64,000 bases of DNA, taken from the NCBI GenBank assembly GCA_020445335.1, contig JAGRGU010000001.1, forward strand, positions 1 through 64,000, in the 5' to 3' direction. The position numbers were made by a program, and so were the translations under genes. Position 1 is the first letter of the stretch. Each line of letters opens with the position of its first letter. This document shows, one piece after another, positions 16,989-32,791 of this stretch. Below the pieces are notes generated by a model. That model was not told the origin of the DNA. It did not search any database and worked only from the letters and a program-made list of their open reading frames with translations. This DNA is from Gammaproteobacteria bacterium. GTDB taxonomy: Bacteria > Pseudomonadota > Gammaproteobacteria > Chromatiales > Chromatiaceae.

Positions 16989-18830
16989 ATGGAGAACAAG
17001 AACACGCTCATTCTCGATCTTCCTGAACGCACACCTCCTCCTGCCGGCTCTCTGCTGCAGGATCCGCGTGAAGTCGAGAGATGGATATCCGGGCTGCCGA
17101 TGGCGAACATCGGTGAAACCTCGCGGCAGATTTTCAAAACCCTGGTCGAGATCAATCGGGTCGATATCCCGAACCTCGCACGCATCAAGACAATCGAACT
17201 GTTCCGGGTACCCATCGGCTACATCACCCACAATCTGAAAAAGTACTACTTCGACTCCGCCTTTCCGCTGTCTGCAAAGAATAGAAAAATTGCCGTACTC
17301 AGTCGTGAGCTCTACAGCGAACTCGCTATCGCCTACAAGATAGTCATTCAGGATATGGTATCAGGCGACCCGCGCAAGCTGGACCGCAAGATTCTGGTGA
17401 TCTCGATGCAGCGCACCATGAGCACGCTGCTGCACGTCCTCTATCAGTCAGCCGTCGTGTACGATCCATTTCCGGCAAATGTCTGGAGGGAGCTCCATCG
17501 CCTTTATGCCTACGCGGAGCGCCAGCAACTGCATGAAATCACGGTCAAGGATTCACAAAGAAACAACAGCCATGGCAGTATCAAAGAGAGCTATACCCAG
17601 GCGCTGCTGTTCGCCGTTCTCTCTCCCTACCGCCTGCGTCCTCGTGAGATCGAACAGTGCTTCCAGCATATAGACTCCTGGAGCGGTTTTTGTCGCCTGA
17701 GCACACCGGAGCGCGTCTCATCCTCACCCACGCTGTTCATCTCCCGCCTGAATTCCAATGCGCCACCAATGCATATCGAACTGCAGGACGCACCGGTCGA
17801 TCGCTATTGCAGGCAGCTAAACACTGGCCAACTGGTCGCCGAACTTCAGGACCAGGTCAACGATTCGCAGGCCGATGAGGAGCGGGACCCCGTGACGGAA
17901 GCGGAGAATCCCCTCTCCGCACAATTGCTCGATCGGCTGATCCAGGTTCTGAGCACGGTACAGAAGCGGAAGTATGTCCGCACGAATCTGAATTTCGAGC
18001 TTAATATCGCCGTCGGTCTCTCCGATATCCACACACTTCTAAAGAGGCCGGCAAGGAGCGAAGAGAGAGCGGCCACTCCGGAACCCAAGGAGGGCGAAAT
18101 CGACTGGTTCCAGCCCAACGAGAAACGTCCGCTGGTCAACTCTCCAAGCTTTGTGTTGGATGGTGCGTCAGGGTTCCAGGTCAAATCACTCGAGGGAGCC
18201 GACCTCGAGGAGACGATCTACGCCACCGGCATTCAGGGCTCCACCGCGAGCGATGGAGTCCTTCCCGCTTGGGTGACCGCGCGTGAAAATGAAGTGACAG
18301 AGCCCTTCTCCTGCATCACTGACAACGAAAGCGCATGGGGTTACTGTATTGTGTGGCCCGGTCCCAACACCCCCAAAATAAGGGTTGGTGAAGTGCTCGG
18401 AATCCAGGTCTCGGCCAATGAGGGCAGAGGTTTCCGCATCGGCCTGAGCCGCTGGCTGCGAAACATCCCAGGGGATTCCCTTCAGGTAGGCCTCGAGATA
18501 ATCGGTCTGGCATCGAGCGCGGTAGATCTGAAAAAACTGGCCGATACCGGTTCGGTTCCAGTTTCCACTAAAGGCATACTGATCCCACAGATGCCCGCTT
18601 CGGGCAAGCGCGCGACACTGATCACTCCCTCCATGCCCTTTTCTGTCGGTGATCGTCTATTGCTAATGGAGAGTGACCGATCAACGGAGGTACAGTTGAC
18701 CAGGTTACTGGAGTCGACCGGCGCATTCTCACAGTTCCAGTTCTCCTATGGCTCAAACCAATCGCCTGAAGAGAGGAGCAAAGCGCAGAACACCTCAAAC
18801 GACTTTGATAGTCTATGGTCTACGCTCTAG
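16989..18830 (+). CDS. Uncharacterised protein with a PilZ-like C-terminal domain
   Basis: A 613-residue cytoplasmic protein with no signal peptide or membrane helix. The first 300 residues are alpha-helical (LEINRVDIPNLARIKTIELF, YITHNLKKYYFDSAFPLS) and resemble nothing I can name. Residues 430-600 look like a beta barrel of PilZ type: EPFSCITDNESAWGYCIVW, IRVGEVLGIQV, FRIGLSRWLRNIPGD, LQVGLEIIG. The usual RxxxR c-di-GMP motif is not evident, so binding is unproven. It is followed 82 bp later on the same strand by a FimX-like protein, which suggests a shared c-di-GMP or type IV pilus pathway. The domain call is by pattern only. Confidence 0.6.
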   Translation: MENKNTLILDLPERTPPPAGSLLQDPREVERWISGLPMANIGETSRQIFKTLVEINRVDIPNLARIKTIELFRVPIGYITHNLKKYYFDSAFPLSAKNRKIAVLSRELYSELAIAYKIVIQDMVSGDPRKLDRKILVISMQRTMSTLLHVLYQSAVVYDPFPANVWRELHRLYAYAERQQLHEITVKDSQRNNSHGSIKESYTQALLFAVLSPYRLRPREIEQCFQHIDSWSGFCRLSTPERVSSSPTLFISRLNSNAPPMHIELQDAPVDRYCRQLNTGQLVAELQDQVNDSQADEERDPVTEAENPLSAQLLDRLIQVLSTVQKRKYVRTNLNFELNIAVGLSDIHTLLKRPARSEERAATPEPKEGEIDWFQPNEKRPLVNSPSFVLDGASGFQVKSLEGADLEETIYATGIQGSTASDGVLPAWVTARENEVTEPFSCITDNESAWGYCIVWPGPNTPKIRVGEVLGIQVSANEGRGFRIGLSRWLRNIPGDSLQVGLEIIGLASSAVDLKKLADTGSVPVSTKGILIPQMPASGKRATLITPSMPFSVGDRLLLMESDRSTEVQLTRLLESTGAFSQFQFSYGSNQSPEERSKAQNTSNDFDSLWSTL

Positions 18831-18912
18831 AGAGCAGCTTGGAACTGAAGGCATACATGGCGTTTGAATCGACCTTGACCCTCTCTTTTTGTTCAGCGCC
18901 TCAGGATCATCT

Positions 18913-20988
18913 ATGAACAACCCGGATCGTGCAATTGAACTCCTGATCATCGATCGTTCGTATGATTCAGCCGAGGAACTGAGTGCAGCACTGCGAAACG
19001 CCGGCTTGGCGATACATCCAAAGCGTGTTGATGGAGAGGAAGGAATACGCTCCGTTCTAAACGACCGGCACTTGGATATCATTCTCTGTTCCGCCGACGT
19101 CGACAGCGGTGAACTGGAGAGAAATATAGAACTGTGCCACGCCGCTGACGGTGACAAGGCACTGATCGTTATCTACAAGGAGCAGGAGTCCGGCCCACTG
19201 TTGCAAGCATTGCAAGCAGGTGCGCGCGACGTTGTATCGATCAACGATACGGAGCACCTGCAGTTTGTCGTCAAACGGGAGTTCAGCGACCTGCAGTTGC
19301 GCCGCGAACTCGCCGCAACGCGTCGAAGCCTGCAGGACGCGGAAGCGCGCTGCAGCATGCTGGTGGAACACTCCAGAGACGCCATCGCCTATATCCATGA
19401 AGGGATGCACGTTCTCGCCAACCCGGTATATCTGTCCCTGTTCGGCTATGTCGACATGGAGGAGTTGGAAGGCCTGCCGATTCTCGACATGATCGCACCG
19501 GATGACCTAAGTCAGTTCAAAAAATTTATTCGCGGTGGGAATCCGAAACAGGGCGAGCTTGAAATCAACTGCCAGAATAGTGAAGGCAAAGCCTTCAAGG
19601 CGCTTCTTGAGTTCTCCGGCGCAACTATCGATGGCGAGCCTTGTACTCAGATAATCATCCGGGACCGCTCTTCCAGTAAAAAGCTGGAGATGAAACTGGA
19701 AGAGGTCAGCAGTCACGATCCACAGACTGGCCTCTACAATCGTCAGTTCCTCAGCAACCGCCTCGATCAGGCCATTGCAACCCAGGAGTACAATGAGAGT
19801 TCGCTGGCCCTGCTCTACATCACCATCGATGAATTTCAGAAGATCCGTAACGAAACCGGGATTGCCGCAAGTGACTCGCTGTTGCAACAGTTCGCTCAGC
19901 TATTGAGCGAAAACTTTGGCGATCAGGAGGTGCTCGCCCGCTTTGGCGATCACAGCTTCACGCTCCTTTTTCGAGGCGACCACGAAGGGGCCACTACACT
20001 CGCAAAATCAATTCACGAGGCCGTCGCCGCTCATCTTTTCAAAACAGAGAAAGATCTGCTTGAGCCACGTTGCAATATTGGTATCGCATTGCTGAGTGAA
20101 GCAACCCCCAGCAGCCAGGAGTTCATCAACAACGCTTACAGCGCCTCCGGCAGCGCACGGGGTAATGGTAATGACGGGACAGCGTTCTATAACGCCGAAG
20201 AGATGCAACCGGAATTCGGTGGTGACGCGAACGAGACCAGGCTCAATGAGCTGATCGAGTCGGCATTGCAAAATGACGGCTTTAAAATGGTGTTTCAGCC
20301 TGTTGTCAGCTTGCAGGGCGAGAGTCGTGAATTCTACGCGGTACTTACACGCCTTATCGATGAGAATGGCGATGAGATCCGGCCAAACCATTTCATGGAT
20401 GCCGCCGTACACGCCAATCAGATGGCCAGAATTGATCGTTGGATCATCAAGAATGCGGTAAAGGAGCTCGTCGCCCAGCGCAGCAAGGGGCAGAAGGTAC
20501 ATTTTTTTGTAACGCTCTCGGCAGACTCCCTGGAAGACAAGGAGACGCTGCTTTGGATATGCGAATGTCTCCGGGAACAGCAAGCGAAAGGCGCTTGGCT
20601 GATTTTCCAGATCAGGGAAGCAGATCTGCGCTCCCACCTCTCGGAGGCCAAGGAACTCCTTGAAGGGTTGAAGAAAATAAAATGTCAGGTAGCCATCGAC
20701 AAATATGGGGTGCTGTCAAAGTCCGACACACTACTGAAGCACCTGCCGATTGACTACGTCAAGTTCGCCCCCGAGCTGGTGGAGGAGATTGCGGTCAATC
20801 AGGAGCGCCAGAACCATCTTGTGCAGCTAAATACCGATACGCAGGAGCATGGGATCAAGACAATTGTAATGGGTGTTGAGGATGCTAACAGCCTGGCGGT
20901 ACTCTGGACGCTGGGTGTCAACTATATCCAGGGCTACTTCCTGCAGGAGCCCTCGGAGAGTATCTCCTACGACTTCGGCAGTGGTTGA
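18913..20988 (+). CDS. FimX-like c-di-GMP protein: receiver-like, PAS, degenerate GGDEF and EAL
   Basis: From the ATG at 18913 the protein is 691 residues, the same length and domain order as Pseudomonas FimX. An N-terminal receiver-like domain (LLIIDRSYDSAEELSAAL) is followed by a PAS domain near residues 150-260, GGDEF near 270-430 and EAL near 450-690. The GGDEF signature reads RFGDHSFTLLF and cannot be catalytic. In the EAL domain the E-x-L signature reads EFYAVLTRL, so the catalytic glutamate is gone. The ligand-binding edges remain: MVFQPVVSL, RIDRWIIKNAV and IQGYFLQEP. This pattern fits a c-di-GMP sensor rather than an enzyme; FimX controls type IV pilus assembly. Confidence 0.85.
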   Translation: MNNPDRAIELLIIDRSYDSAEELSAALRNAGLAIHPKRVDGEEGIRSVLNDRHLDIILCSADVDSGELERNIELCHAADGDKALIVIYKEQESGPLLQALQAGARDVVSINDTEHLQFVVKREFSDLQLRRELAATRRSLQDAEARCSMLVEHSRDAIAYIHEGMHVLANPVYLSLFGYVDMEELEGLPILDMIAPDDLSQFKKFIRGGNPKQGELEINCQNSEGKAFKALLEFSGATIDGEPCTQIIIRDRSSSKKLEMKLEEVSSHDPQTGLYNRQFLSNRLDQAIATQEYNESSLALLYITIDEFQKIRNETGIAASDSLLQQFAQLLSENFGDQEVLARFGDHSFTLLFRGDHEGATTLAKSIHEAVAAHLFKTEKDLLEPRCNIGIALLSEATPSSQEFINNAYSASGSARGNGNDGTAFYNAEEMQPEFGGDANETRLNELIESALQNDGFKMVFQPVVSLQGESREFYAVLTRLIDENGDEIRPNHFMDAAVHANQMARIDRWIIKNAVKELVAQRSKGQKVHFFVTLSADSLEDKETLLWICECLREQQAKGAWLIFQIREADLRSHLSEAKELLEGLKKIKCQVAIDKYGVLSKSDTLLKHLPIDYVKFAPELVEEIAVNQERQNHLVQLNTDTQEHGIKTIVMGVEDANSLAVLWTLGVNYIQGYFLQEPSESISYDFGSG

Positions 20989-21022: not shown

Positions 21023-21544
21023 CTACCAAGGCATAAAGGTATTCATGAACGACATTGGCCGCGAGATACTGTGGTTGATATTTGACATGTCGGAACGCAT
21101 GTATTGTGTGGTATAAGTAATCGACTTTATCGCCCGATCCATCGAATCCATCGTCTGATCCATTGAGTCGATACTCGTCAGCATGGGCTCCAGTGTGCTG
21201 ATATTCTGATTTATATCTTCCATGTTGGCCGCCATGGCCCTGACGTTGGCGGTAAGGTGATTCATATTGTCCGACACCGCCTGAAAGTTGCTTGCCATGA
21301 CCGTCATGTTAGAGTCGACGCTGATGGCAAGATAGTGGATATCCCGGGTCAGACTGTAGATCAGGAAAAAACCGTAACCTGCCAGCAGAATAAAGCCAAA
21401 CAGCGAGGGGTAGACAATCAACTCCCAGCGTCTGGCGCTCGTCTCGAAGGCTTCGGAAAGCCTGTCGAACGATTTATCCACACTATCCTGCCTCACCTGA
21501 TCGGCTCTTGAGGCTTGGCTTTCGTTCATTGACTTCTCAATCAT
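21023..21544 (-). CDS. Single-pass membrane protein with periplasmic coiled coil, unknown
   Basis: 173 residues. A charged cytoplasmic N-terminus of about 40 residues (RLSEAFETSARRWE) is followed by one hydrophobic helix (LIVYPSLFGFILLAGYGFFLIYSL) and then about 105 residues rich in Met, Asn, Ser and Asp arranged like the stalk of a chemoreceptor (FQAVSDNMNHLTANVRAMAANMEDINQNISTLEPML). No enzymatic motif is visible. It lies downstream of the DUF302 gene, beyond a hairpin, and converges with the FimX-like gene. A second in-frame ATG at 21529 is an equally good start. It may be part of the cluster upstream. Confidence 0.7.
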   Translation of the reverse strand: MIEKSMNESQASRADQVRQDSVDKSFDRLSEAFETSARRWELIVYPSLFGFILLAGYGFFLIYSLTRDIHYLAISVDSNMTVMASNFQAVSDNMNHLTANVRAMAANMEDINQNISTLEPMLTSIDSMDQTMDSMDRAIKSITYTTQYMRSDMSNINHSISRPMSFMNTFMPW

Positions 21545-21778
21545 CTCGATTCAGCCTGCTTCAAACTTCCTGACTAAATTATATCGGCACAAGCATAGCA
21601 TAGTTCAGCGCGTAGTGATCCATCGGATGGCAACTGAGGAAACACTCTATCTATCTGTTTAAAAAGGGTTTTAACAGATCTGGCATTTGCACTGAGCGTG
21701 TTCGGGAGATCGATACCGACGGAAGGAAGCGTCGTGGGGAAGAGAAATAGGAACCAGAAACCGACAAAGGAACCTAGT

Positions 21779-21812
21779 GGAACTCGCTCACCAGGCACGG
21801 TGAACGAGTTCC
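21779..21812 (-). terminator. Hairpin terminator of the DUF302/ParA gene group
   Basis: A 14-bp inverted repeat with one mismatch (GGAACTCG-C-TCACC against GGTGA-A-CGAGTTCC) begins 21 bases after the DUF302 stop codon on the minus strand. The following minus-strand bases ACTAGGTTCCTTTG give only a weak T-run, so some read-through into the downstream membrane-protein gene is plausible. Confidence 0.6.
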
Positions 21813-21832
21813 GCTAAATGCGGGGAAACCTG

Positions 21833-22411
21833 CTAAAACTCTCCTTCTGCGCCTCGATGCATAATCTGCAGGATGTGCTCTTTGACCTGTATCGCCTTCG
21901 CTTTCAGTTCAGGAGGCAGGGGTTCACCACCATAGATCATCAGATCCATGTTGAGCGTATAAAGCCACAGCTTGCCCTCCCCGTCCTCAACCATGGTAAT
22001 GCGACATGGCAGATAAGCGGAGAAGGCATCGTTATAGTCGAGCATCTCTTTTGCAATCAGAGAGTTGCAAAACATGTAAATCTTGACGAAACGGTAGGCA
22101 TTGCCACTCTTGGCCTCTACATCCTTGTACAACGGCAACTCCCCAACATTGGACATGTTCAGTTCGTTGGCGACGAACTTCATCGTCTCCTCCACATCGT
22201 CTGCCGACAAGTCCGGATTTACCGGCACCCGCCAAACCGTCGCTTCCGCTCCATTTCCAGAATTCAGGACATTCTGCGCCAGCTCCATGTATACCTTTCC
22301 GGCTTCCGGGTCGAATCGGCCCAAATTATCTTTGTGTTGGACAAACAGGCCAGCCAGAACCACGACCACAGCCAAGCCAACCAAAGCCAACAGGTTTCTA
22401 ATCAACCCCAT
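21833..22411 (-). CDS. Membrane-anchored DUF302 protein
   Basis: 192 residues: an N-terminal membrane helix (LLALVGLAVVVVLAGLFV) and a periplasmic domain of DUF302 type (NAYRFVKIYMFCNSLIAKEMLDY and ITMVEDGEGKLWLYTLNMDLMI). The family is widespread in sulfur- and metal-oxidising bacteria; its biochemical role is unknown, and proposals include ligand binding. GGAGGGAT lies upstream of the ATG. It follows the ParA gene by 39 bp and precedes a terminator hairpin, so it looks like the last gene of the RND-ParA transcription unit. Confidence 0.82.
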   Translation of the reverse strand: MGLIRNLLALVGLAVVVVLAGLFVQHKDNLGRFDPEAGKVYMELAQNVLNSGNGAEATVWRVPVNPDLSADDVEETMKFVANELNMSNVGELPLYKDVEAKSGNAYRFVKIYMFCNSLIAKEMLDYNDAFSAYLPCRITMVEDGEGKLWLYTLNMDLMIYGGEPLPPELKAKAIQVKEHILQIMHRGAEGEF

Positions 22412-22450
22412 TACCTGATCCCTCCTTTGGGAAATTTGTAGTGACTACTC

Positions 22451-23086
22451 TCACTCTTTGACAAGTTCCGGATAGAGCTTCGCGCAGAGCGCATTGAATT
22501 CCGTGGTGCCCTTGGACTTGGTACTCAGTTCAAAAACCGCCAATCCTTCGCTGAACGAGCGCCTGAAAATGGTACGCTGAGAGAGACGTGGCTTGAGAAA
22601 CCGAATCCCCGGAAGTGAAACCAGCGCGGCGGCCGCCTCATCCGTTTCCCGAACCGCGTGATGTGTATCCCCTCGATTTATAAAACCCAGAATCTGGATC
22701 TCTGTTTCACGACCAAGAGAGTTGGCAAACTGGATAAAGCGCTGCGTGGACCAGATGTCTGCCTGAGACGGAGGTACTGGAACCACGATCCGGTCGGCTA
22801 TTCTTATCGCCTGTTTCATCATCTCCAGATCCGCGGTTCCGATATCGATCAACGCCTCGTCTGCCTTGCGCAGCTTCTGTTCATCAAGATATTTTTTCCC
22901 TCGCACCGTTATTGATGGTCGGTACCCCTCCTCCTCCCTGACTTCCGCCACGTCTCTCAGCGTCGCCTGTGGATCCAGATCGATCACCTCGACATTGCAC
23001 TCGGCCCGCGTAAGCCAAACTGCCAGATTGAAGGTGACCGTACTTTTTCCAGAGCCACCTTTCAGACTCCCGACTACCGTTATCAT
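22451..23086 (-). CDS. Orphan ParA-family ATPase
   Basis: 211 residues starting MITVVGSLKGGSGKSTVTFNLA, which is the deviant Walker A motif of ParA/MinD proteins, with VEVIDLDPQAT as Walker A' and EALIDIGTADLEMM as the switch region. There is no parB or parS-like neighbour and the protein lacks the long N-terminal DNA-binding domain of plasmid ParAs, so it belongs to the short class that positions cargo (chemoreceptor clusters, carboxysomes, plasmids). It sits 10 bp after the large secreted-protein gene and before DUF302, so its cargo could be this envelope system; that is inference. Confidence 0.88.
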   Translation of the reverse strand: MITVVGSLKGGSGKSTVTFNLAVWLTRAECNVEVIDLDPQATLRDVAEVREEEGYRPSITVRGKKYLDEQKLRKADEALIDIGTADLEMMKQAIRIADRIVVPVPPSQADIWSTQRFIQFANSLGRETEIQILGFINRGDTHHAVRETDEAAAALVSLPGIRFLKPRLSQRTIFRRSFSEGLAVFELSTKSKGTTEFNALCAKLYPELVKE

Positions 23087-23096
23087 TGTGCCGCCC

Positions 23097-24350
23097 CTAT
23101 CGAAGAACTTCTTTGTCGGCTAACAAGGAAAAGCGCGAGGCTCCCTGTCCAGGAATAGAGGGGCTCACCCCGGTCATCGCAAGTATCGAGGCGTCCTCGC
23201 TTCTACTAGATCGAATCTGGGCATTTGAACCGGCCGGCGTGTAGGCGTTCGCATCCCGCTCCCCGGCTGGTGCCCGCATTGATCGGGAGTGCTGCACTCC
23301 GCCGCTCAACCTGGCGTCCGGTCTGAATCTGTATCGATTCTGATGCACCGCCCGCTGAGCCCGATGCATCAGGTTCGAACGAGAAGTCTCCGCCAACCTA
23401 TAGGTGGCTCTGTCGACTCTCGGGTCATGACGTACTGCAAAATCGGACGGATACTCCCGCCTTGGGCCAGGAATACCGACGAGCGGAGCAACCCGGGCCA
23501 ATTGCCTTAGGCGCTTGTGAGGGCGAGGCGATTTCAGCCCGGCAACCAGCCCCTGTAATGCCCGGCTCGGCCCAAGTGACGGATAAGGTACTGCGTTTGT
23601 TATCGGCCGGAACGCTTTCGTGGGCGTATGGTTTGCGATCGGCGGCCCACCGATTCTGAAAGCAGGACTGGCAGCATACGTACGGGGGCGGAAATCTGCG
23701 AATTTCCGCTTGCGCTCCATCAGTGGCTGAAATGTCGCAGGCCTAAAGCTACTGGCAAACTTTCCGTCCCTCTGCCAGTTACGTTCAGCATAACGAACTC
23801 GGGGTTGCATAAAAGCCGCAGGAGCATAGCGCCCCCTATTGTTCAAAGGGCGGTATCGATAGGCCGTAACATAACCCTGAGTCCTGGCAAACTGCCGGCT
23901 CCAGGGTGCCACCGGCCGGGCGGAAGATGGCCTGTTCGACACCATCGCCTGATACGGGGCTGAATACGGGTACGGCCCCGCGACCTGCTGGGGAAGCGGA
24001 TAACCACGAGGGTGCCAGACACCGACATATCTCTGATCCCCCTCGCTCATCGGGCGAAACCTAAATCTCTGCTGAGCAACGGGCATTGGCATCTGCCTAT
24101 ACGGACGCAGATAGCCGTATCCAACAGCAAACGGCGGCGGGGCGTAATAGAAACCGGGATGTCGGTTGCGCATGGGGCGATAGTTGTACCTTGGGGTAAA
24201 GCTGACAATCTGATGTGACGGAGTCGCCGGTACCACGATGGGCAGGTAACTATGCGGCAACTGTACCGGAGATGCGTTTACCGACTGCGCAGAGAAGCTG
24301 CCAATCAGTGCCAATAGGCCGACTACAATATTTCGTCTGGTATCTTTCAT
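23097..24350 (-). CDS. Secreted Arg/Pro/Tyr-rich protein with repeated F/Y-R-P motifs, unknown
   Basis: 417 residues beginning with a signal peptide (MKDTRRNIVVGLLALIGSF...VNA) preceded by AAGGAAAG. The mature part is low-complexity and strongly basic, rich in Arg, Pro, Tyr, Phe and Ala, with few acidic residues and no cysteine. The tripeptide F/Y-R-P recurs seven times: NYRPM, RFRPM, RYRPL, SFRPA, DFRPR, AFRPI and RFRPD, spread through residues 55-345. Aromatic blocks such as PGFYYAPPPF resemble structural surface or granule-coat proteins. It is 26 bp from another protein with the same motif and 10 bp from ParA. Nothing in it predicts enzymatic activity. Confidence 0.8.
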   Translation of the reverse strand: MKDTRRNIVVGLLALIGSFSAQSVNASPVQLPHSYLPIVVPATPSHQIVSFTPRYNYRPMRNRHPGFYYAPPPFAVGYGYLRPYRQMPMPVAQQRFRFRPMSEGDQRYVGVWHPRGYPLPQQVAGPYPYSAPYQAMVSNRPSSARPVAPWSRQFARTQGYVTAYRYRPLNNRGRYAPAAFMQPRVRYAERNWQRDGKFASSFRPATFQPLMERKRKFADFRPRTYAASPAFRIGGPPIANHTPTKAFRPITNAVPYPSLGPSRALQGLVAGLKSPRPHKRLRQLARVAPLVGIPGPRREYPSDFAVRHDPRVDRATYRLAETSRSNLMHRAQRAVHQNRYRFRPDARLSGGVQHSRSMRAPAGERDANAYTPAGSNAQIRSSRSEDASILAMTGVSPSIPGQGASRFSLLADKEVLR

Positions 24351-24376
24351 AGTGCTTTCCTTAATTTTGCCGTCGC

Positions 24377-24976
24377 CTAGGGTATCGGTCTGAATTTTGG
24401 AGCAACTGGTGCAAAACTGGGCAAATAGCCCACTCCTGCGTCCGGAATTGGAACTTGGTAGTGAGGAGGTTCTGGTGGCCGTTCTCTGCTCCTGGAGTAG
24501 GGCCTTTGTGCCTCACCATTCATTGGCCTGAATACCGGTGCCGGGCCGATGGAGCCATCATCGGCGCGCCAGGAGTAATCGGAACGCCCGATTCTGGATC
24601 GCGGCCGGAAAACCGGATAGGGATCGACTGCCTGAGTCGGAGTATCGCGGAACTTGTAGGACTGCCCGACTTCGGGGAAACGCGATGGAGACCAACTATG
24701 TGAAGGAGGGTTCTCGGAAAGCTGTCCCGGATCCTCCAGCTGAGCAGCGACAGGGGGCCTGAATACGTACCCCCCGACATGGTTTGGCTGTTCGAAGGAG
24801 TGCAATCCCGGCTGCTGGTAGTTGTTGGGATAGCGGCCGGCACCGTAGCCGAAGTCTGCTGCCTCAGAGAGAGTCGGCAACGCCAGGGCCACCACTAACA
24901 TCATCTTTTTCCCGGTAACCCTGATAATTTTACTTCTCCCCAAGAAGTCAATCACTCCACCTTCGATGGCGAGCAT
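24377..24976 (-). CDS. Secreted proline-rich protein with F-R-P motifs, unknown
   Basis: About 175-199 residues. The annotated ATG gives a long N-terminus; a TTG giving MGRSKIIRVTGKKMML as the start of the signal peptide (ending PTLSEAA) is a better fit. The mature part is Pro/Gly/Tyr/Arg-rich and disordered, with four V/K-F-R-P motifs (YVFRPP, PVFRPR, PVFRPM, and KFRPIP at the very C-terminus). The motif is the same as in the downstream 417-residue protein, though overall sequence is not obviously alignable. Both genes are on the same strand as the RND pump 68 bp upstream. No known family is recognised. Confidence 0.75.
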   Translation of the reverse strand: MLAIEGGVIDFLGRSKIIRVTGKKMMLVVALALPTLSEAADFGYGAGRYPNNYQQPGLHSFEQPNHVGGYVFRPPVAAQLEDPGQLSENPPSHSWSPSRFPEVGQSYKFRDTPTQAVDPYPVFRPRSRIGRSDYSWRADDGSIGPAPVFRPMNGEAQRPYSRSRERPPEPPHYQVPIPDAGVGYLPSFAPVAPKFRPIP

Positions 24977-25044
24977 TCAGTTGCTGCAAAGATCATTGCA
25001 AAGGCCGCACAGGGGACACGCCGTCCCACAAGCGTTACCGTTGC

Positions 25045-28000
25045 CTAGGACTCTATGCCGCCAGTATCACTTAGCTTCAGACGTATCCCCCTCCTACCCT
25101 CTTTCTTCGTGGCACCTACTCCGTTTCTCACCATGTCTCCCTGATCCGATTCTGGTTCTTTCGTAGTCGCCTTTGCGCTGGACGGAGTAGACTTCGTATT
25201 CTTAACCACAGCTGCGGCAGACGCGGATTTGTTCCCCGAGCTGCTCGAAGCGCGCTTTTTGGGTGAGATTTTCCGTTTCGTGGCTGCGTTACGCGCTTTG
25301 GATTTTTTGGAACCTGCACCCTCGATGGCTTGTGACCCCGCCTGTGTGCCGGTGGATGCGGCTTCGGTCTTCACTTCAGCGGCTACTGGAGTCTCGACTA
25401 TCTCTGGCTCAGTTCGCTGATCTACCCGCGTTGCAGGTTCCGCGTGCCGCTGCTGCACATCGGAATCTTGGCTTGCAGAGGTTGTCGACGTTATAACCGG
25501 GTCGCTGCCAGCTCCATCGGCAGAAGCGATTGTGCTACCACCGCTACCGCCAGGTGGCGATGAAGGGGGCGTCTGACCACTTTTCGGCGGTACAGCAGGG
25601 GGGGGTTGCTGCGGTTTCGGCTTCCGCTTGAACAGCTGACCCAGCAGCAGAAAAATGCCACGCACCGCATAAAACAGCATCAGCAGAACCGATGCGAACT
25701 TGCTCCAAATCCTGAGAAGCAATGGAGTGGCCTGTACGACGGGCGGGCTTTTTGGGGTCTCGGGCGAGGAATCAAGTGCCGACAACGAACCGTCACCTCC
25801 AATCGCCGCAACCTCAAGCAAGGCCTTGCTCGACTTGATGCATCCCAACGGTATTACGATCAACGTCAGGATAGTGGAGACCATGACACCGGACGCCAAG
25901 GAGATTGCCATTCCCTGAAAAATTGGATCGGTAAAAATAACACTGGAACCGCAGACCAGGGCCAGAGCAGTAATCATGATCGGCCGTGTACGCGTCTTAC
26001 AGGCCCTGATAACCGCCTCGGCAACGGGAATGCCTCGCTGCACTTCGTGGACCGAAAAATCGACCAGCAAAATCGAGTTACGCACGATGATTCCAGCCAA
26101 TGCAATCCAGCCGATCATCGAGGTCGCGGTGAACTCGGCCCCCATGATCGCATGCATCGGGATGATTCCCAGCAGCGTCAAGGGAATCGGCGCCATAATC
26201 AACGCCGGGATGCGGAAGTTGCCGAACTCCCAGACCACCAACATATAGATGAGCACCAGCGCAACCATGAAAGCCGCGCCCATGTCGCGGAAGGTCTCGA
26301 AGGTTACGGTCCACTCTCCGGTCCACTCGAAAGAAGAGACCCTGTCGTCCGCAGGCGGCCCGAACCAATAGGCATCAAGTTTCACGCCATCCGGCGCCGT
26401 GTACTTCTCCTCCAACAGATCCTGGACCTGGAACATTCCATAAACAGGTGCGGCCAGCTCACCACCGACATCCGCCACAACATACTCGATGGAACGCAAA
26501 TCTTTGTGATAGATAATGCCCTCTTCGGGTACCTGTTCGAACCGTCCCAGCTCTCGAAGCGGTATGGCTGCTCCGCTCTGCGATATTATCGGCAAGTCGC
26601 CTAGACGGGTCACCTGCGAACGTTCCGCCAGCGGGACCTGAATGATGATATTCACGGGCTCATGGCCGGCGCGTTGCTTTACGTCCCCAAGCTTCATGCC
26701 GCCAAGCGCCATCGACAGATTCCGGTTGATGGTATCGACCGATATTCCACGACGACGCGACTTCTCCGTATCGACATGGAAGCGCCAGTACTGATAGGGG
26801 TCGCGCATGTAGTTGTCGACATCCCTCAGACTATCAGTCTGAGAGAAAATCTCGGTCAAGTCACTGGCCACCTGCCGCCGCGTTCTATCATTTGGACCAT
26901 GCACTTCTGCAACTACAGACTGCAGAACCGGTGGACCGGGTGGCATCTCCACGATCGAGAAACGGGCGCCCGAGCCTTTTAACACCTCTCCTATATCACT
27001 GCGCGCCTGCACCGCCAACTCGTGACTGCTGCGGTCTCGTTTGCTCTTGTGCAGCAACTGCACCTGAATTTCACCTTGCCAGGGATCCTGACGCAGGTAG
27101 TAGTGGCGCACCATGCCGTTGAAATCGAAAGGCCGTGCCGTTCCCGCGTATACCTGAACCGCAGTGACTTCCGGCATTTTCCGCACCGTTTCCGCCACTC
27201 GGTGCGCGGTATTGACCGTGACCGGAAGCGCTGTCCCCTCCGGCATATCCAGGACCACGGCGAACTCAGGCTTGTTGTCCAGTGGCAACATTTTCACCGC
27301 AACCCACTTGGTATAGAACATGGAACAGGCGAACATAAAGCTGCCCCATAGCACCACCCGGAATATATAGCGCTTGCGCGGATACTCAATCATCGGCGTG
27401 AGGATCCTCCGATAGAGGCCCTCCAGCCACTCCGCCTCCCGATGTTCCCTCTTCTCCGCTGTCGAGAGATACGACATCGTCGGCCGCAGCCAGTTGGAGA
27501 TGGTCAACCAGGGAGTAAATACAAAAGCCGCGAACAGTGATATCAGCATGGCGGCCGAACCCAAAGCGGGAATCGGTTCCATGTACGGCCCCATCATGCC
27601 ACTGACAAAACCCATCGGCAGCAGCGCCGCAATTACCGTGAACGTTGCCAGGATCGTCGGGTTGCCGACCTCGGCTACCGCGTCGATAGCGGTTTCCATG
27701 TCGGTCTTGCCCTCTTCCAGCCAACGTCGATAGATGTTCTCTACCACGACGATCGCATCGTCAACCAGGATGCCGATAGAGAAGATCAATGCAAAAAGAC
27801 TGACCCGGTCGATGGTGTAGCCGGTGATAAAGGCAAAAAAGATCGTCATCAACAACACGACGGGAATGACCAGCACCACGACAATTGCCGGCCGCAATGC
27901 CCTGAAAGCCAGCAACACAAGCAGAAATACAAACCCTGTGGCCACAAAAAGTTTGAAAATCAGTTCGTTAACCTTGTCGTTTGCCGTTTCACCGTAATCG

Positions 28001-29091
28001 CGGGTGATACTGACTTCAACATTGGCCGGAATCCTGTTTCCCTTCAGGTCATGCACGCGCTGGATAATATTGTTGGCCACGGTAACGCCGTTGACACCCG
28101 CTTTTTTGGCCACTGCTATGGTCACGGCCGGCGAACCGGAGACATTGCGTTCGTAACCACCAGCGGGGCCGGTATAAAAGGTGACCATCTGCGTTGCATC
28201 ACCAGGCCCCTGCATAACGCGGGCGACATCGTGAACGTAAACCGGTACATCGTTATGGGTGCCAACGATTAGACTGTTTACATCGTCGAGCGTCTTCAAA
28301 AAGGAACCGGTGGTGACCGTAAAGTGGGTATTACCCGATTCAACTCCACCGGCCTGTTGTTCACTGTTGGCCGAACGTATGGTGTTGGCTACCTGGTCGA
28401 GACTGATGCCATAGCCCGCGAGTCGCTCTGGGTACACCTCGATCGTGACCTGTTCGGAACGGCCGCCGACCACGAAACCGTTGCCGGTGTCGGGAATCTC
28501 CTTGATGCTCTGCAATACATCCTGCGCCAGCATGCGCAGCTGGCCGTCGTCGACATCCGCAATACCGTTGTTGTCGAGATCCTTCGACCAGAGCGTGATA
28601 TTGACGACTGGAACGTCATCGATGCCCTTTGACTTGACCAGTGGCGGGGAGACGCCAGGCGGCATCATGTCCATATTGGTCGCAAGTTTGTCGTTTACTT
28701 TGACCAGGGAGGGACCCATCTGTTGCCCCACATCGAACTCGATGGTCACCATGCCCGAGCCGCGCTGAGTCGCCGAGTAGACATGCTTGACACCGGGAAT
28801 CTCGCTCATTATCCGCTCCAGCGGCTCGATTGCGAGGTTGGCAACCTGCCCAGCCGAAGCGCCGGCGTACTGGACGAAAATGTCGACCATGGGGACCGAA
28901 ATCTGCGGATCTTCCTGCCGAGGGGTCATGACTAGACCAAGCAGCCCCATCAGCATCATCGCGATGAACAGCAACGGCGAAAGAGGGGAGTTGATGAAGA
29001 ACCGGGCGGTGCGTCCAGCCAGTCCCAGTTCCTCATCTGTCAAAGAAACTGCTCGTTGCTCTTCATCGACCTTCGCGTCTTCCTGGTTCAT
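25045..29091 (-). CDS. RND-family efflux permease with long C-terminal extension
   Basis: 1,348 residues. Residues 1-1,080 form a normal RND inner-membrane pump: TM1 after a charged 30-residue leader, porter domain with VPMVDIFVQYAGASAGQV, TM4 with the proton-relay aspartates in GILVDDAIVVVENIYRRW, and the second half with IGWIALAGIIVRNSILLVDF. The remaining 266 residues are unusual: an extra hydrophobic segment (FASVLLMLFYAVRGIFLLLG), then about 195 residues of Pro/Ser/Thr/Ala/Lys-rich disorder with a histone-like basic block (KKSKARNAATKRKISPKKR). If the extra segment spans the membrane, this tail is periplasmic. The adaptor gene lies upstream; no TolC-type gene is nearby. Substrate unknown. 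Confidence 0.9.
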   Translation of the reverse strand: MNQEDAKVDEEQRAVSLTDEELGLAGRTARFFINSPLSPLLFIAMMLMGLLGLVMTPRQEDPQISVPMVDIFVQYAGASAGQVANLAIEPLERIMSEIPGVKHVYSATQRGSGMVTIEFDVGQQMGPSLVKVNDKLATNMDMMPPGVSPPLVKSKGIDDVPVVNITLWSKDLDNNGIADVDDGQLRMLAQDVLQSIKEIPDTGNGFVVGGRSEQVTIEVYPERLAGYGISLDQVANTIRSANSEQQAGGVESGNTHFTVTTGSFLKTLDDVNSLIVGTHNDVPVYVHDVARVMQGPGDATQMVTFYTGPAGGYERNVSGSPAVTIAVAKKAGVNGVTVANNIIQRVHDLKGNRIPANVEVSITRDYGETANDKVNELIFKLFVATGFVFLLVLLAFRALRPAIVVVLVIPVVLLMTIFFAFITGYTIDRVSLFALIFSIGILVDDAIVVVENIYRRWLEEGKTDMETAIDAVAEVGNPTILATFTVIAALLPMGFVSGMMGPYMEPIPALGSAAMLISLFAAFVFTPWLTISNWLRPTMSYLSTAEKREHREAEWLEGLYRRILTPMIEYPRKRYIFRVVLWGSFMFACSMFYTKWVAVKMLPLDNKPEFAVVLDMPEGTALPVTVNTAHRVAETVRKMPEVTAVQVYAGTARPFDFNGMVRHYYLRQDPWQGEIQVQLLHKSKRDRSSHELAVQARSDIGEVLKGSGARFSIVEMPPGPPVLQSVVAEVHGPNDRTRRQVASDLTEIFSQTDSLRDVDNYMRDPYQYWRFHVDTEKSRRRGISVDTINRNLSMALGGMKLGDVKQRAGHEPVNIIIQVPLAERSQVTRLGDLPIISQSGAAIPLRELGRFEQVPEEGIIYHKDLRSIEYVVADVGGELAAPVYGMFQVQDLLEEKYTAPDGVKLDAYWFGPPADDRVSSFEWTGEWTVTFETFRDMGAAFMVALVLIYMLVVWEFGNFRIPALIMAPIPLTLLGIIPMHAIMGAEFTATSMIGWIALAGIIVRNSILLVDFSVHEVQRGIPVAEAVIRACKTRTRPIMITALALVCGSSVIFTDPIFQGMAISLASGVMVSTILTLIVIPLGCIKSSKALLEVAAIGGDGSLSALDSSPETPKSPPVVQATPLLLRIWSKFASVLLMLFYAVRGIFLLLGQLFKRKPKPQQPPPAVPPKSGQTPPSSPPGGSGGSTIASADGAGSDPVITSTTSASQDSDVQQRHAEPATRVDQRTEPEIVETPVAAEVKTEAASTGTQAGSQAIEGAGSKKSKARNAATKRKISPKKRASSSSGNKSASAAAVVKNTKSTPSSAKATTKEPESDQGDMVRNGVGATKKEGRRGIRLKLSDTGGIES

Positions 29092-29190
29092 TTGATTCGT
29101 TTTTTATAGTAAATGAAGCACCAAACGTGCCCGAGGAGACCGCCGCGTCATGCGGCGGGATTCATGTCCCACCGACCACCCTGACCGGCA

Positions 29191-30342
29191 TCAGCTACCA
29201 GGGGCCGAAGTCCACCCCGAAGCGACCCCCTGCCCTGGACTACGAAGTACCCTTTCGCCCTCGCTTAACCCGGAGAGCACACTGGTATAACCCCCATCGA
29301 GATTTTCTCCGACACGGATCAGACGCAGCTCAGGCCTGCCGTCCGTTCCAAGCACGTAGACACCGGGAAGGCTGCCGTTATAGCGGATCGCGCTGGTTGG
29401 AATGACAGGGTAGTTGCGTGCCGGTGCGGTGAAATCGGGGACAAGTACCTTGGTATACATGCCCGGTGCAGAGACCCCCTGGGGCAGATCGAACTTCACT
29501 TTGACGGTATGGCGTTGCGCATCCGCCATCGGGAAGATCTGCGCCACTCTGACCGGCACCACCTGATCGCCCACATCGAGTTGCGCCTGTAACATCATGC
29601 CCTCGCTCAGCCCTGGTCGCAGGCGAGCTGGAACATCGACCGAAACCTGCAGATACTCGACATCCGCAAACACCAGGAGTGGCTGGCCGGGCTGCATGGT
29701 GTCACCCTCTTCGATGTACTTCTTCATGATGACACCGTCGAAAGGGGCTAGACTCCTGGCATCTCGGAGCTTTGCATCGATCGCTTCGATCTGTGAACGA
29801 GCTGCCATCACCGAATTGCGAGCCTGGTTGATCTGTATCCCCGAAGAGTAGAGATCCGCCCTGCGCTCCACTCCGCGATGCCGCGTCCCGGAGAAACTCT
29901 CCATCGGTTGGGTAAACATTTGATCGAACAAGTTGGGAATGCCCATGCCCCCGGGCGCTGCCTCGGATTGCGGAGACCAAAGCTCACGATCGTACTTGAT
30001 CCCAGCGGCGCGCAATTGGGAGTCCGCATTGGCGAGTTGAGCAATGGCAGAGTTTCGTTTCGCGAGCAACTCGCTGTCATCCAGCGCAACCAGTAGCGTT
30101 CCCTCGCTGAACGAGTCACCCTCGATTCCGGCCAGGTATTTGACCCGGCCAGGCAGCTGTGCAGCAAGTGTGACCTCTTTGTAGGGGATTACGGTACCGC
30201 CCAGTGCGACCGTGGGAGCACCCCGCGCCTGCTGCACCGTAAAGAAATCACCGCCCGCTGCCTGCGACCAAACCTGGCCCGGCGACGCTGCGACAACGGC
30301 TAGACTTACTGCCAAAGCGAGCGCTTGAACATTGTATCCCAT
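29191..30342 (-). CDS. RND periplasmic adaptor (membrane fusion protein)
   Basis: 383 residues from the ATG at 30342; a TTG four codons upstream is possible. The signal peptide (MGYNVQALALAVSLAVVAA...WSQA) is not followed by a lipobox cysteine. The adaptor layout is visible: a barrel segment (GTVIPYKEVTLAAQLPGRVKYL), a lipoyl-like region (GDSFSEGTLLVALDDSELLAKR), a helical hairpin interrupted by a Pro/Gly-rich insert (EAAPGGMGIPNLFDQMF), the returning SLAPFDGVIMKKYIEEGDTM, and C-terminal barrel YPVIPTSAIRYNG. It would link the RND pump to an outer-membrane channel encoded elsewhere. The RND gene follows after 99 bp. Confidence 0.9.
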   Translation of the reverse strand: MGYNVQALALAVSLAVVAASPGQVWSQAAGGDFFTVQQARGAPTVALGGTVIPYKEVTLAAQLPGRVKYLAGIEGDSFSEGTLLVALDDSELLAKRNSAIAQLANADSQLRAAGIKYDRELWSPQSEAAPGGMGIPNLFDQMFTQPMESFSGTRHRGVERRADLYSSGIQINQARNSVMAARSQIEAIDAKLRDARSLAPFDGVIMKKYIEEGDTMQPGQPLLVFADVEYLQVSVDVPARLRPGLSEGMMLQAQLDVGDQVVPVRVAQIFPMADAQRHTVKVKFDLPQGVSAPGMYTKVLVPDFTAPARNYPVIPTSAIRYNGSLPGVYVLGTDGRPELRLIRVGENLDGGYTSVLSGLSEGERVLRSPGQGVASGWTSAPGS

Positions 30343-30424
30343 CGCAATTCTCAACCTGACTAAGATATGCTTCTTAAAGAAAATTTTTCAAAGAGAGCCT
30401 TCATACCACCGGGGTGGAGATGGC

Positions 30425-30455
30425 AAAGGCCGCCCGGTCTGCCCGGGCGGCCTTT
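30425..30455 (-). terminator. Strong terminator after the SCP2 gene
   Basis: A perfect 13-bp GC-rich stem (AAAGGCCGCCCGG and its complement, five-base loop) with A and T flanks on both sides. On the minus strand it lies 15 bases after the SCP2 stop, isolating that gene from the RND operon. Confidence 0.88.
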
Positions 30456-30469
30456 CAGGCAAAGAACAG

Positions 30470-30865
30470 CTACACTTTACCCATGACCGAGAAGGTCTTG
30501 ATGAACGGACCCGCCATACGCGGATCTTTCAGCATTGCACCGTAATCGCCGACTTTGAACTTCATCTTGCCGGACGTGAACGCCATCCCGAGACCCATCA
30601 TACCCGGCGGTTTGCTGATCCATTTATTCCATTGAGCCTCGGCACAACGGATGTCCCAATTCAACGTCTCCCCGTTGTAACCACCGGCAGAGATCGCCTG
30701 ACCGTTCTCAACGGTTATAACGCCTCTCGGTTTGTCCTCACCGTCGATACCGTAACCGATTACACTGCCGAAACCGATCTGGGCCAGTGAACCGGTCAAG
30801 TCGGAATCCGCGTTCCATTGCGCCATAAAACCCTTCATCCACTCATCGGAAAAAAGATCCGCCAT
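30470..30865 (-). CDS. SCP2 sterol/lipid-binding-domain protein
   Basis: 131 residues from the ATG at 30865, chosen because GGAGG lies ten bases upstream (MADLFSDEWMKGFMAQWN). The SCP2-type lipid-binding domain covers the whole protein, including the late segment MGLGMAFTSGKMKFKVGDYGAML. There is no signal peptide, so it acts in the cytoplasm, plausibly as a carrier of lipid or other hydrophobic ligand. It is separated from the RND operon by a strong terminator but is transcribed in the same direction just ahead of it. Confidence 0.82.
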   Translation of the reverse strand: MADLFSDEWMKGFMAQWNADSDLTGSLAQIGFGSVIGYGIDGEDKPRGVITVENGQAISAGGYNGETLNWDIRCAEAQWNKWISKPPGMMGLGMAFTSGKMKFKVGDYGAMLKDPRMAGPFIKTFSVMGKV

Positions 30866-31294
30866 CACAAACCTCCGAAAGTTCAATAGTTTTTTGTCGA
30901 GTTATGCAGGCTTCCCGTTTGTTGTCATCTAGGATGGGAAACGCCTTGTTTTAAGCCGCATCAGTATCCCTTAACCCCCCTGTATTTGCAACAAAGCAGA
31001 GGCTTCGGAATAAAGTAAAAAACGCTTAATCAGAATATTTTAATATTATACTTTATATTCGCCCCGGATGTCCAGATTCTTTGCCTATCTATTTACAAAT
31101 TAAAGATTTTTTTATCAATCACAATGCGTTGCATTTTTGGGCTGTTCGCGGGCAATGAAGACGGGGTACTATTATTGTCATGCCACATAGGCGCCCGGGA
31201 AATCACTCCGCCCAACGTTAAAAAGCGAGTGCTCTCAAACGATACCAAGACGATACTAAAACACTCAGGTTCGACCCTAGCTTTCGGAGCCAAC
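30866..31294. other. Divergent intergenic region
   Basis: About 430 bp between the SCP2 gene and the dynamin-like gene. The stretch 31010-31130 is very AT-rich, with a near-palindromic AATATTTTAATATT at 31034-31047 and further TATA-like hexamers, and probably carries promoters for one or both genes. The dynamin-like frame stays open upstream to 31124, but that part lacks family sequence. No RNA gene was recognised. Confidence 0.45.
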
Positions 31295-32791
31295 ATGACC
31301 AGTGCAGGAAAACTGATTGAAGGACGCCTCAAACATCTGGAAACCCATCTTGAGCAGGAGAATCCGGTCCTGCTGAGCACGGTACAGAGTTTCAGAAAGC
31401 TGGACAGGGTGGCGCGGAAGATGGGTCTGCTGAATTCCGCGGACTCCTATGCCACGCAGATTCCCTGGTGGCCATTGATCTCCATCCTGGGTACATTTTC
31501 TGCGGGAAAATCGACTTTTATCAATCATTATCTCGGACACAAACTACAACGTACCGGAAATCAAGCGGTCGATGACCGCTTCAGCGTCATCTGCTATAGC
31601 CGTGAAGAGAACTCACACGCCCTACCGGGAGTGGCACTGGATGCCGATCCCCGTTTTCCTTTCTATCAAATGAGCGATGAGATCGAACGGGTGGCCAAGG
31701 GTGAGGGTCGCAGAATCGACGCTTACCTGCAGCTCAAGACCTGTCCGAGTGAACAATTGCGAGGTAAAATTCTCATCGATTCACCCGGCTTCGACGCCGA
31801 TGCACAGCGTACTTCCACGCTGCGCATCACCGATCACATAATCGGTCTTTCCGACTTGGTACTGGTGCTATTCGATGCTAGGCATCCGGAACCGGGTGCA
31901 ATGAAGGATACGCTCGACCATTTGGTCAGCAATACCATCAATCGCCCTGATTCAGGGAAATTTCTCTACATTCTCAACCAAATCGATGCAACCGCACGGG
32001 AGGACAATCCAGAAGAGGTTGTAGCCGCCTGGCAGCGCGCCATGGGCGATCGCGGCTTGACTGCAGGGCGTTTTTACACCATCTACAATCCGGATCTGGC
32101 TCTGCCCATTGACGACGAAAATCTCAAGGAACGCTTCGAGCGCAAGCGTGATGAGGATCTGCAGGAGATTCACGGTCGCATGCAGGAAGTCGAGGTGGAA
32201 CGAGCCTACCGCATCGTCGGCGCCTTGGAAAAAACTGCTCGCGATATAGAAGAGAAGGCGGTTCCGGAGTTGAGTGCTGCTCTCGGACGGTGGAAAAAAC
32301 GCGTGCTTTGGGGCGATGGGATTGCATTCGGACTGTTACTGATTGGAGCCATCTTCCTTAGCGTCAAGCTCGATTACTGGCAGGGATTCAGTTTCTCCCC
32401 GCCATGGCTGGCATCGCCGACCGCGCCCCCCTGGGCTCTCTTCGGGGGGCTCGGCATGCTGGCTATTTTTCTGCTCGGTGTGCACTACCTGGTCCGTTCG
32501 CTCACTGCTCGAGGTATCGTCAGCAGCCTGAGAAACCGCGCTGCTGCGCTTGGCATAAAGGGTGACCTCTCCAACGCATTCCTGCGCAACATCAAACCCT
32601 GGCGCACTATTTTCAGCAAATCCCCTGCGGGTTGGGGAAGAGGCGCAAGAAAGCGGTTGAGCCAGGTCACCCAAGATGCGGACAGTTATGTCCAGATTCT
32701 GAACGACAGGTTCACCAACCCGTCCGGAGAAGCTTCCAAAACGCAGACCAAGGGAGCTGAGCCCACAACCCAGCCTGCCGATAACCAGTAA
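31295..32791 (+). CDS. Dynamin/EHD-like membrane GTPase
   Basis: 498 residues from the ATG at 31295, six bases after GGAG. The large GTPase domain shows G1 GTFSAGKSTFINHYLG near residue 67, G3 IDSPGFDADAQR near residue 155, and G4 as NQID near residue 220. Two C-terminal hydrophobic segments (GIAFGLLLIGAIFLSV and LFGGLGMLAIFLLGVHYLV) anchor it, followed by an Arg/Lys-rich tail. Bacterial dynamins remodel or repair membranes; the specific role here is unknown. It is a single gene without a partner dynamin, between oppositely oriented genes. Confidence 0.85.
   Translation: MTSAGKLIEGRLKHLETHLEQENPVLLSTVQSFRKLDRVARKMGLLNSADSYATQIPWWPLISILGTFSAGKSTFINHYLGHKLQRTGNQAVDDRFSVICYSREENSHALPGVALDADPRFPFYQMSDEIERVAKGEGRRIDAYLQLKTCPSEQLRGKILIDSPGFDADAQRTSTLRITDHIIGLSDLVLVLFDARHPEPGAMKDTLDHLVSNTINRPDSGKFLYILNQIDATAREDNPEEVVAAWQRAMGDRGLTAGRFYTIYNPDLALPIDDENLKERFERKRDEDLQEIHGRMQEVEVERAYRIVGALEKTARDIEEKAVPELSAALGRWKKRVLWGDGIAFGLLLIGAIFLSVKLDYWQGFSFSPPWLASPTAPPWALFGGLGMLAIFLLGVHYLVRSLTARGIVSSLRNRAAALGIKGDLSNAFLRNIKPWRTIFSKSPAGWGRGARKRLSQVTQDADSYVQILNDRFTNPSGEASKTQTKGAEPTTQPADNQ

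Follow-up and report, generated by a model that had tools for sequence, protein, structure and literature searches.

Positions 21,023–30,865 of a 64,000-nucleotide stretch of Gammaproteobacteria bacterium DNA (Chromatiaceae; GenBank assembly GCA_020445335.1, contig JAGRGU010000001.1, positions 1 to 64,000), which we call the window, hold a block of minus-strand genes that is almost certainly a conserved multi-gene system and very probably has a functional link to sulfur storage. Checking open reading frames (ORFs) and protein families gene by gene, we found the order SCP2-fold protein, periplasmic adaptor, resistance–nodulation–division (RND) pump, FRP1, FRP2, ParA, DUF302 protein and CC173, which confirms the parts listed, and the order from adaptor to DUF302 given, by an original prediction made from the letters alone. 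The block recurs with a definable membership, it is associated with sulfur globule proteins, and a motif at the C-terminal end of its RND pump is largely inherited together with its ParA. Our reading of the whole, to which we give a probability of roughly 0.52, is that the block encodes an inner-membrane envelope machine linked to sulfur globules and that ParA positions this machine through the tail of the RND pump. Genomes, contigs, loci and families are distinguished below, where needed, by our own handles (G, C, L and f).

The block ParA is present at 60–85% identity in most of the sampled genomes from the window's own (home) family, and a scan of named genomes returned 283 relatives, the best 80 of which came from Chromatiaceae, Sedimenticola, Thiodiazotropha, Thiosymbion and related or unclassified gammaproteobacteria. 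Home-family neighbourhoods, compared in 20-kb stretches, shared the recurrent order adaptor–RND–secreted–(DUF4412)–ParA–(TPR)–(DUF302)–CC173–(5′-nucleotidase); many of them also have a divergently oriented gene for a dynamin-like GTPase on the upstream side, and in many a convergent GGDEF/EAL gene lies downstream. Across the class, a ParA profile was positive in 65 of 369 sampled Gammaproteobacteria from 32 families, or 30 families once we had excluded the divergent ParAs of f85 and f117, around which the block was not recognised. (Two f85 genomes, G129 and G252, carry sulfur globule proteins together with a divergent ParA; no block was recognised around the one examined.) Loci of other families hold the same parts, often with the dynamin gene directly 3′ of CC173 on the same strand, and we therefore count dynamin as a block member; family scans likewise placed DUF4412 (PF14371, tentatively LolA-like) and a membrane TPR protein in the wider block. 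Among 31 families, a set that includes the two with divergent ParAs, TPR, CC173 and RND were each found in 20, dynamin in 19, and DUF302 and DUF4412 in 13 each, all of these being lower bounds because many contigs end early. A sulfur-globule-like secreted protein was found in 16 of the 31, as a class that we delimited by our own sequence features and of whose 23 members one (a 75-aa ORF at L206) looks spurious. The recurrence of gene order in the home family and across the class rules out chance adjacency and agrees with the predicted recurrence in sulfur oxidisers; we found neither an adjacency confined to this genome nor a ParA or DUF302 conserved elsewhere with an unrelated partner, the two outcomes named beforehand as refuting the proposal. 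The limits of the block had been drawn too narrowly: the coiled-coil protein CC173, described as merely nearby, is a core member that lies 3′ of ParA in most block loci, and the dynamin-like GTPase at 31124–32791 (plus strand) also belongs to the block. The RND tail, dynamin, DUF4412, TPR and the sulfur globule genes inside the blocks of other families had all been missed.

The connection to sulfur emerged from these other families. Two of four Gly/Trp/Tyr-rich proteins that we tested, encoded there between RND and ParA, matched PF17228 (Sulphur globule protein), one of them, a G182 protein, above the curated cut-off (34.4 bits versus 26.7). Within the ParA sample, PF17228 proteins occurred in 55 of 369 genomes (and in none of 14 control genomes), including 49 of the 65 ParA-positive versus 6 of the 304 ParA-negative genomes (odds ratio 152, p = 4e-40). 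The association persisted inside SoxB-positive genomes (odds ratio 50, p = 6e-20), inside SoxB-or-DsrA genomes (odds ratio 51, p = 2e-21) and when families were taken as the units (p = 9e-20), phylogeny being handled at family level only, and ParA co-occurred with globule proteins in 23 families. The genes are also physically close: in 12 genomes from 9 families, against ~0.19 expected, a PF17228 gene was found 81–2689 bp upstream of ParA, without exception on the ParA strand. ParA of the strict set was found in 56 of 163 sulfur oxidisers versus 4 of 206 other genomes, and among those four the home genome and G282 carry dsrB. In the home genome PF17228 matched six times, never on the contig that holds the block. 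We rejected the idea that the block is a mere marker of sulfur oxidation, since SoxB (150/369) and DsrA (117/369) are far broader; the sample tested contained no sulfur-excreting phototrophs to serve as a natural control. What had been a guess at sulfur granules has thus gained support from the association with globule proteins.

The block RND pump (25045–29091, minus strand; 1348 aa) is HAE1-like, with an ACR_tran match (E = 8e-148), a DD proton-relay motif and a C-terminal extension of ~265 residues. Past the conserved core, this extension consists of a hydrophobic helix, a Lys/Ala/Pro-rich stretch and then the sequence RRGIRLK, at a median of 16 residues from the end; in the window the motif, which we propose binds ParA, was read from the translation at 25075–25095 (minus strand). 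Allowing GI[RKQ]L[KR] variants, we scored the motif in the block RNDs of 30 out of 30 home-family genomes, in 64 out of 64 named genomes (whose species overlap with the home-family set) and in 28 of 29 RNDs from other families, the remaining one reading RGIRIK. The home genome encodes about ten RNDs, of which the block RND alone has the tail with the motif. A second one (G000:C101:10643-13774, L249) lacks the motif, and its end resembles those of the tail-less RND copies (59–65% identity to the block RND) of other home-family genomes. A more distant tail-less RND (~38–46% identity) occurs in ParA-positive and ParA-negative genomes alike, never with the motif.

Exceptional genomes are informative about this pairing. 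Where a ParA locus has no pump, a motif-bearing tailed RND is encoded elsewhere in the genome (G020, G034, G060, G077, G093, G112, G195, G221 and G327). The home-family genome G010 keeps adaptor, RND, CC173 and SCP2 with no remnant of ParA, and the end of its RND has eroded to RKSVRIK; G125, a complete chromosome, has an otherwise full block with a sulfur globule-like gene, DUF4412, TPR, CC173 and dynamin in which ParA is absent and the RND is tail-less; G249, G270 and G348 have neither ParA nor the tail motif; and G013 and G035 have neither ParA nor an RND orthologue. We did not count G018, G019 and G025 as ParA losses, although ParA seemed to be missing there, because their contigs end beside RND. 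Tail motif and ParA are thus for the most part inherited as a pair, and ParA appears to be accessory to the remaining block. The net charge of the tail is positive in 89 of 92 tails, which argues for a cytoplasmic location.

ParA itself (22451–23086, minus strand; 211 aa; CbiA, MipZ and ParA family matches) has a deviant Walker A box with the signature lysine, KGGSGKST, that is invariant in 23 aligned homologues, and its nearest solved relatives in a PDB search were ParF (4dzz) and ParA (5u1g). An ORF and family scan of the window block found no ParB-like gene (parS-like repeats were not searched for), and we rejected an ordinary ParABS DNA-partition system because no ParB lies beside ParA. 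A second ParA of the home genome (G000:C128:4904-5518, L075) is 52% identical to the block ParA, and G001 has one that is 53% identical; around L075 we recognised no block genes. The partners of ParA/MinD proteins generally engage them with a disordered terminus of positive charge (PMC10241942, PMC12204374), which in ParB is a short stretch combining aliphatic with basic residues (PMC12462528), a description that RRGIRLK fits. We consider it somewhat more likely than not that the RND tail is the partner of ParA, which would make the RND complex its cargo, held by a cytoplasmic tail.

The other members surround this pair. The adaptor (29191–30354, minus strand) belongs to the HlyD/RND_mfp type (TIGR01730, 152 bits versus a cut-off of 94.9), and no outer-membrane channel gene lies among the block genes of the window, the rest of the genome not having been searched for one. 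The 131-aa protein at 30473–30865 (minus strand) is predicted to be lipid-carrier-like: its AlphaFold model (pLDDT 87) has sterol carrier protein 2 as its best PDB match (2cx7, E = 3e-8, TM score 0.76), so that the SCP2 label stands as regards the predicted fold, while a Pfam sequence match is absent. DUF4412 gave Foldseek matches to LolA/RseB at E ~1e-6 with weak TM scores of 0.2–0.4. These models point to a hydrophobic or lipid cargo, weakly in the case of DUF4412. The dynamin-like GTPase (555 aa, divergent in the window) has a C-terminal transmembrane hairpin and a Dynamin_N domain (E = 9e-14; 52 bits versus a cut-off of 27), is EHD-like by PDB sequence search, and points to membrane remodelling. 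CC173 (21023–21544, minus strand) combines a transmembrane segment with a coiled coil; the family alignment shows an invariant C-terminal RPM...F.PW and a near-invariant basic stretch (RRWE) beside the transmembrane segment. The DUF302 protein (21833–22411, minus strand; PF03625, E = 1e-11) has an N-terminal transmembrane segment. From SCP2 to CC173 the intergenic gaps are 118, 99, 68, 26, 10, 39 and 288 bp; the five from adaptor to DUF302 (99, 68, 26, 10 and 39 bp) bear out the predicted 10–100 bp and are consistent with co-transcription without proving it. A shared transcript, like export as the function of the block, has the standing of a candidate. Promoter and terminator scans returned about as many sites as in shuffled sequence.

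FRP1 (24377–24976, minus strand) and FRP2 (23097–24350, minus strand) are secreted low-complexity proteins by ORF translation and motif enrichment, the former with repeated FRP motifs and the latter rich in Pro, Arg and Tyr. Their F/Y-R-P motif, noticed in the original prediction, proved non-random: [FYW]RP occurs 4 times in FRP1 versus 0.3 expected and 7 times in FRP2 versus 0.7 expected (shuffle p ~0.001). Neither protein matched the PF17228 model, and we accordingly rejected their assignment as PF17228 sulfur globule proteins; they are candidate coat proteins. The membrane TPR protein 3′ of ParA (L042, L043, L046, L048, L049 and L060) often has one or two F/Y-R-P motifs, exceeding shuffles at p < 0.05 in L042, L046 and L048 only, and F/Y-R-P may be a short binding motif shared by the TPR and FRP proteins. 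Outside the home family, further secreted low-complexity families lie between RND and ParA, one with PPPPGPY/F and one with NPW/RPWG motifs (L199, L201, L207, L209, L212, L217, L219-L221, L223, L224 and L227).

Family scans found no DUF4412, TPR or 5′-nucleotidase gene at the window locus. In Chromatiaceae, a PF06189 5′-nucleotidase of ~300–325 aa (E = 2e-132) regularly lies 3′ of the block (L049, L064, L066 and others), and at f133 loci L214, L219 and L231 a co-directional gene of ~520 aa, with no match to the dynamin profile, takes the place after the coiled-coil gene that dynamin occupies in other families. A FimX-like PAS-GGDEF-EAL protein of 699 aa (18889–20988, plus strand), degenerate in reading RFGDHSF for GGDEF and AVL for EAL, is encoded convergently with the block in many home-family genomes; we rejected it as a core member because it is largely confined to that family. 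Beside it lies the gene for a 613-aa protein (16989–18830, plus strand) that is kept in part of the home family and has no Pfam or NCBIfam match.

In the model that we propose, the product of the block is an envelope machine in the inner membrane of sulfur-oxidising Gammaproteobacteria, and this machine would be tied to sulfur storage in globules of the periplasm. Its core would comprise the proton-driven RND pump and its adaptor, secreted low-complexity proteins in a coat-like role (FRP1 and FRP2 in the window, sulfur globule proteins in other families), the lipid-carrier-like SCP2 and DUF4412, the membrane-anchored coiled-coil and TPR proteins, and the dynamin-like GTPase; a coat protein, a lipid or a sulfur species could be the substrate of the pump. 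ParA would be an accessory that positions the machine: nucleoid-bound ParA-ATP would be engaged through RRGIRLK by the flexible basic C-terminal tail of the pump, in the manner of ParB and McdB terminal peptides, and this contact would distribute the machines, and with them the globules that are built there. The chances that the block functions in globule assembly or positioning seem to us evenly balanced, and we infer that the cargo would be the globule assembly site. The furthest step, in which a nucleoid ParA takes hold of the RND machine by its cytoplasmic tail and so positions a periplasmic sulfur globule from the other side of the inner membrane, we put forward tentatively and consider somewhat doubtful.

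Several observations weigh against this model. G133 (88% complete) retains the motif although ParA was not found, and G198 has ParA together with a pump copy lacking the motif; 11 of the 56 block-positive sulfur oxidisers have no Pfam globule protein at the threshold used. Allochromatium vinosum without SgpD forms globules normally and in normal number, and the placement of globules is often called random (PMC10386293); because of these reports, any effect on positioning may be subtle. The extra helix before the tail is, moreover, as hydrophobic as TM12 (Kyte–Doolittle mean 2.18), and if it spans the membrane the tail would be periplasmic and out of ParA's reach. RRGIRLK might then bind coat proteins, peptidoglycan or the globule, with ParA partnered by dynamin or by the cytosolic N-terminus of the coiled-coil protein, whose near-invariant basic RRWE beside the membrane would suit such a role. 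We judge this arrangement unlikely, given that the positive charge of 89 of 92 tails disfavours translocation, that the motif erodes where ParA is missing yet coat-like genes remain, and that the coiled-coil protein is kept when ParA is lost.

A different function for the whole block also has to be considered. Sulfur storers might need a system for exporting lipids or hydrophobic compounds, or for maintaining the outer membrane, for instance against polysulfide or membrane stress, in which ParA would space the pumps without building or positioning globules. An RND pump and adaptor with no adjacent TolC gene, the SCP2 fold, the LolA-like DUF4412 (weak, at TM scores of 0.2–0.4) and the dynamin-like GTPase would all be at home there, and RND pumps paired with lipids, such as HpnN, are known. 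Against it stand the sulfur globule genes that several families have within the block, immediately before ParA, and an association with globule proteins that persists among sulfur oxidisers alone, and we hold it to be rather unlikely. The block might instead encode a surface-layer, biofilm or sheath system that is unrelated to sulfur and simply goes along with how sulfur oxidisers live and how they are related; the low-complexity secreted proteins do resemble surface proteins, and the degenerate FimX-like neighbour of the home family would be in keeping with it. That neighbour is, however, seldom seen outside the home family, the association still holds when only sulfur oxidisers are compared or when families are the units, and several families carry sulfur globule genes within the block itself, making this explanation quite improbable.

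With McdA-McdB and other ParA/MinD cargo systems (PMC12204374, PMC10241942) the block shares an orphan ParA with a deviant Walker A box and no ParB beside it, a candidate partner with a basic low-complexity terminus, and a link to a storage or organelle-like inclusion. Unlike in McdA-McdB, the role of partner is assigned to an integral RND pump whose C-terminus carries the motif, the proposed cargo lies across the membrane in the periplasm, and many extra envelope genes are present. ParF-ParG and ParA-ParB offer the nearest solved relative (ParF, 4dzz) and partner peptides of aliphatic and basic residues (PMC12462528), but no ParG- or ParB-like gene was noticed beside the block ParA, which is instead co-inherited with a membrane pump. 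The RND protein shares the ACR_tran core, DD proton-relay motif and dedicated adaptor of HAE1 pumps (AcrB, MexB, MdtBC) and differs from them in its ~265-residue tail with a conserved terminal motif, in having no adjacent outer-membrane channel gene and in its co-inheritance with ParA. The dynamin-like protein has the Dynamin_N GTPase domain and predicted membrane association of other bacterial dynamin-like and EHD proteins but is embedded in a conserved RND-ParA block. SgpA, SgpB, SgpC and SgpD of A. vinosum (PF17228 family) are likewise secreted, repetitive and of low complexity, and PF17228-type genes sit in the blocks of other families, whereas FRP1 and FRP2 have no PF17228 match. The sgpD gene adjoins a hydrophobe/amphiphile exporter gene (PMC10386293), which agrees with the block as a hint; identity of the block with the sgpD locus was not established, sgpD adjoining a two-component regulator according to the same paper. 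Published Sgp work is confined to coat proteins: nowhere in the literature searched did we find a partner of the ParA, dynamin, tailed-RND or TPR kind, and a search for sulfur globules together with ParA, RND or dynamin returned no description of such a system, most subscription papers lying outside its coverage.

Although sulfur globules may account for as much as one third of the dry mass of a purple sulfur bacterium's cell (PMC10386293), we found in that literature, beyond a few coat proteins, no machinery for building, placing or inheriting them, and the conserved envelope gene set described here supplies concrete targets for knock-out and localisation. If the model is correct, the RND tail as a ParA partner would add membrane pumps to the class of ParA cargoes, and the ParA of these bacteria would have a membrane pump for its partner and a cargo in the periplasm.

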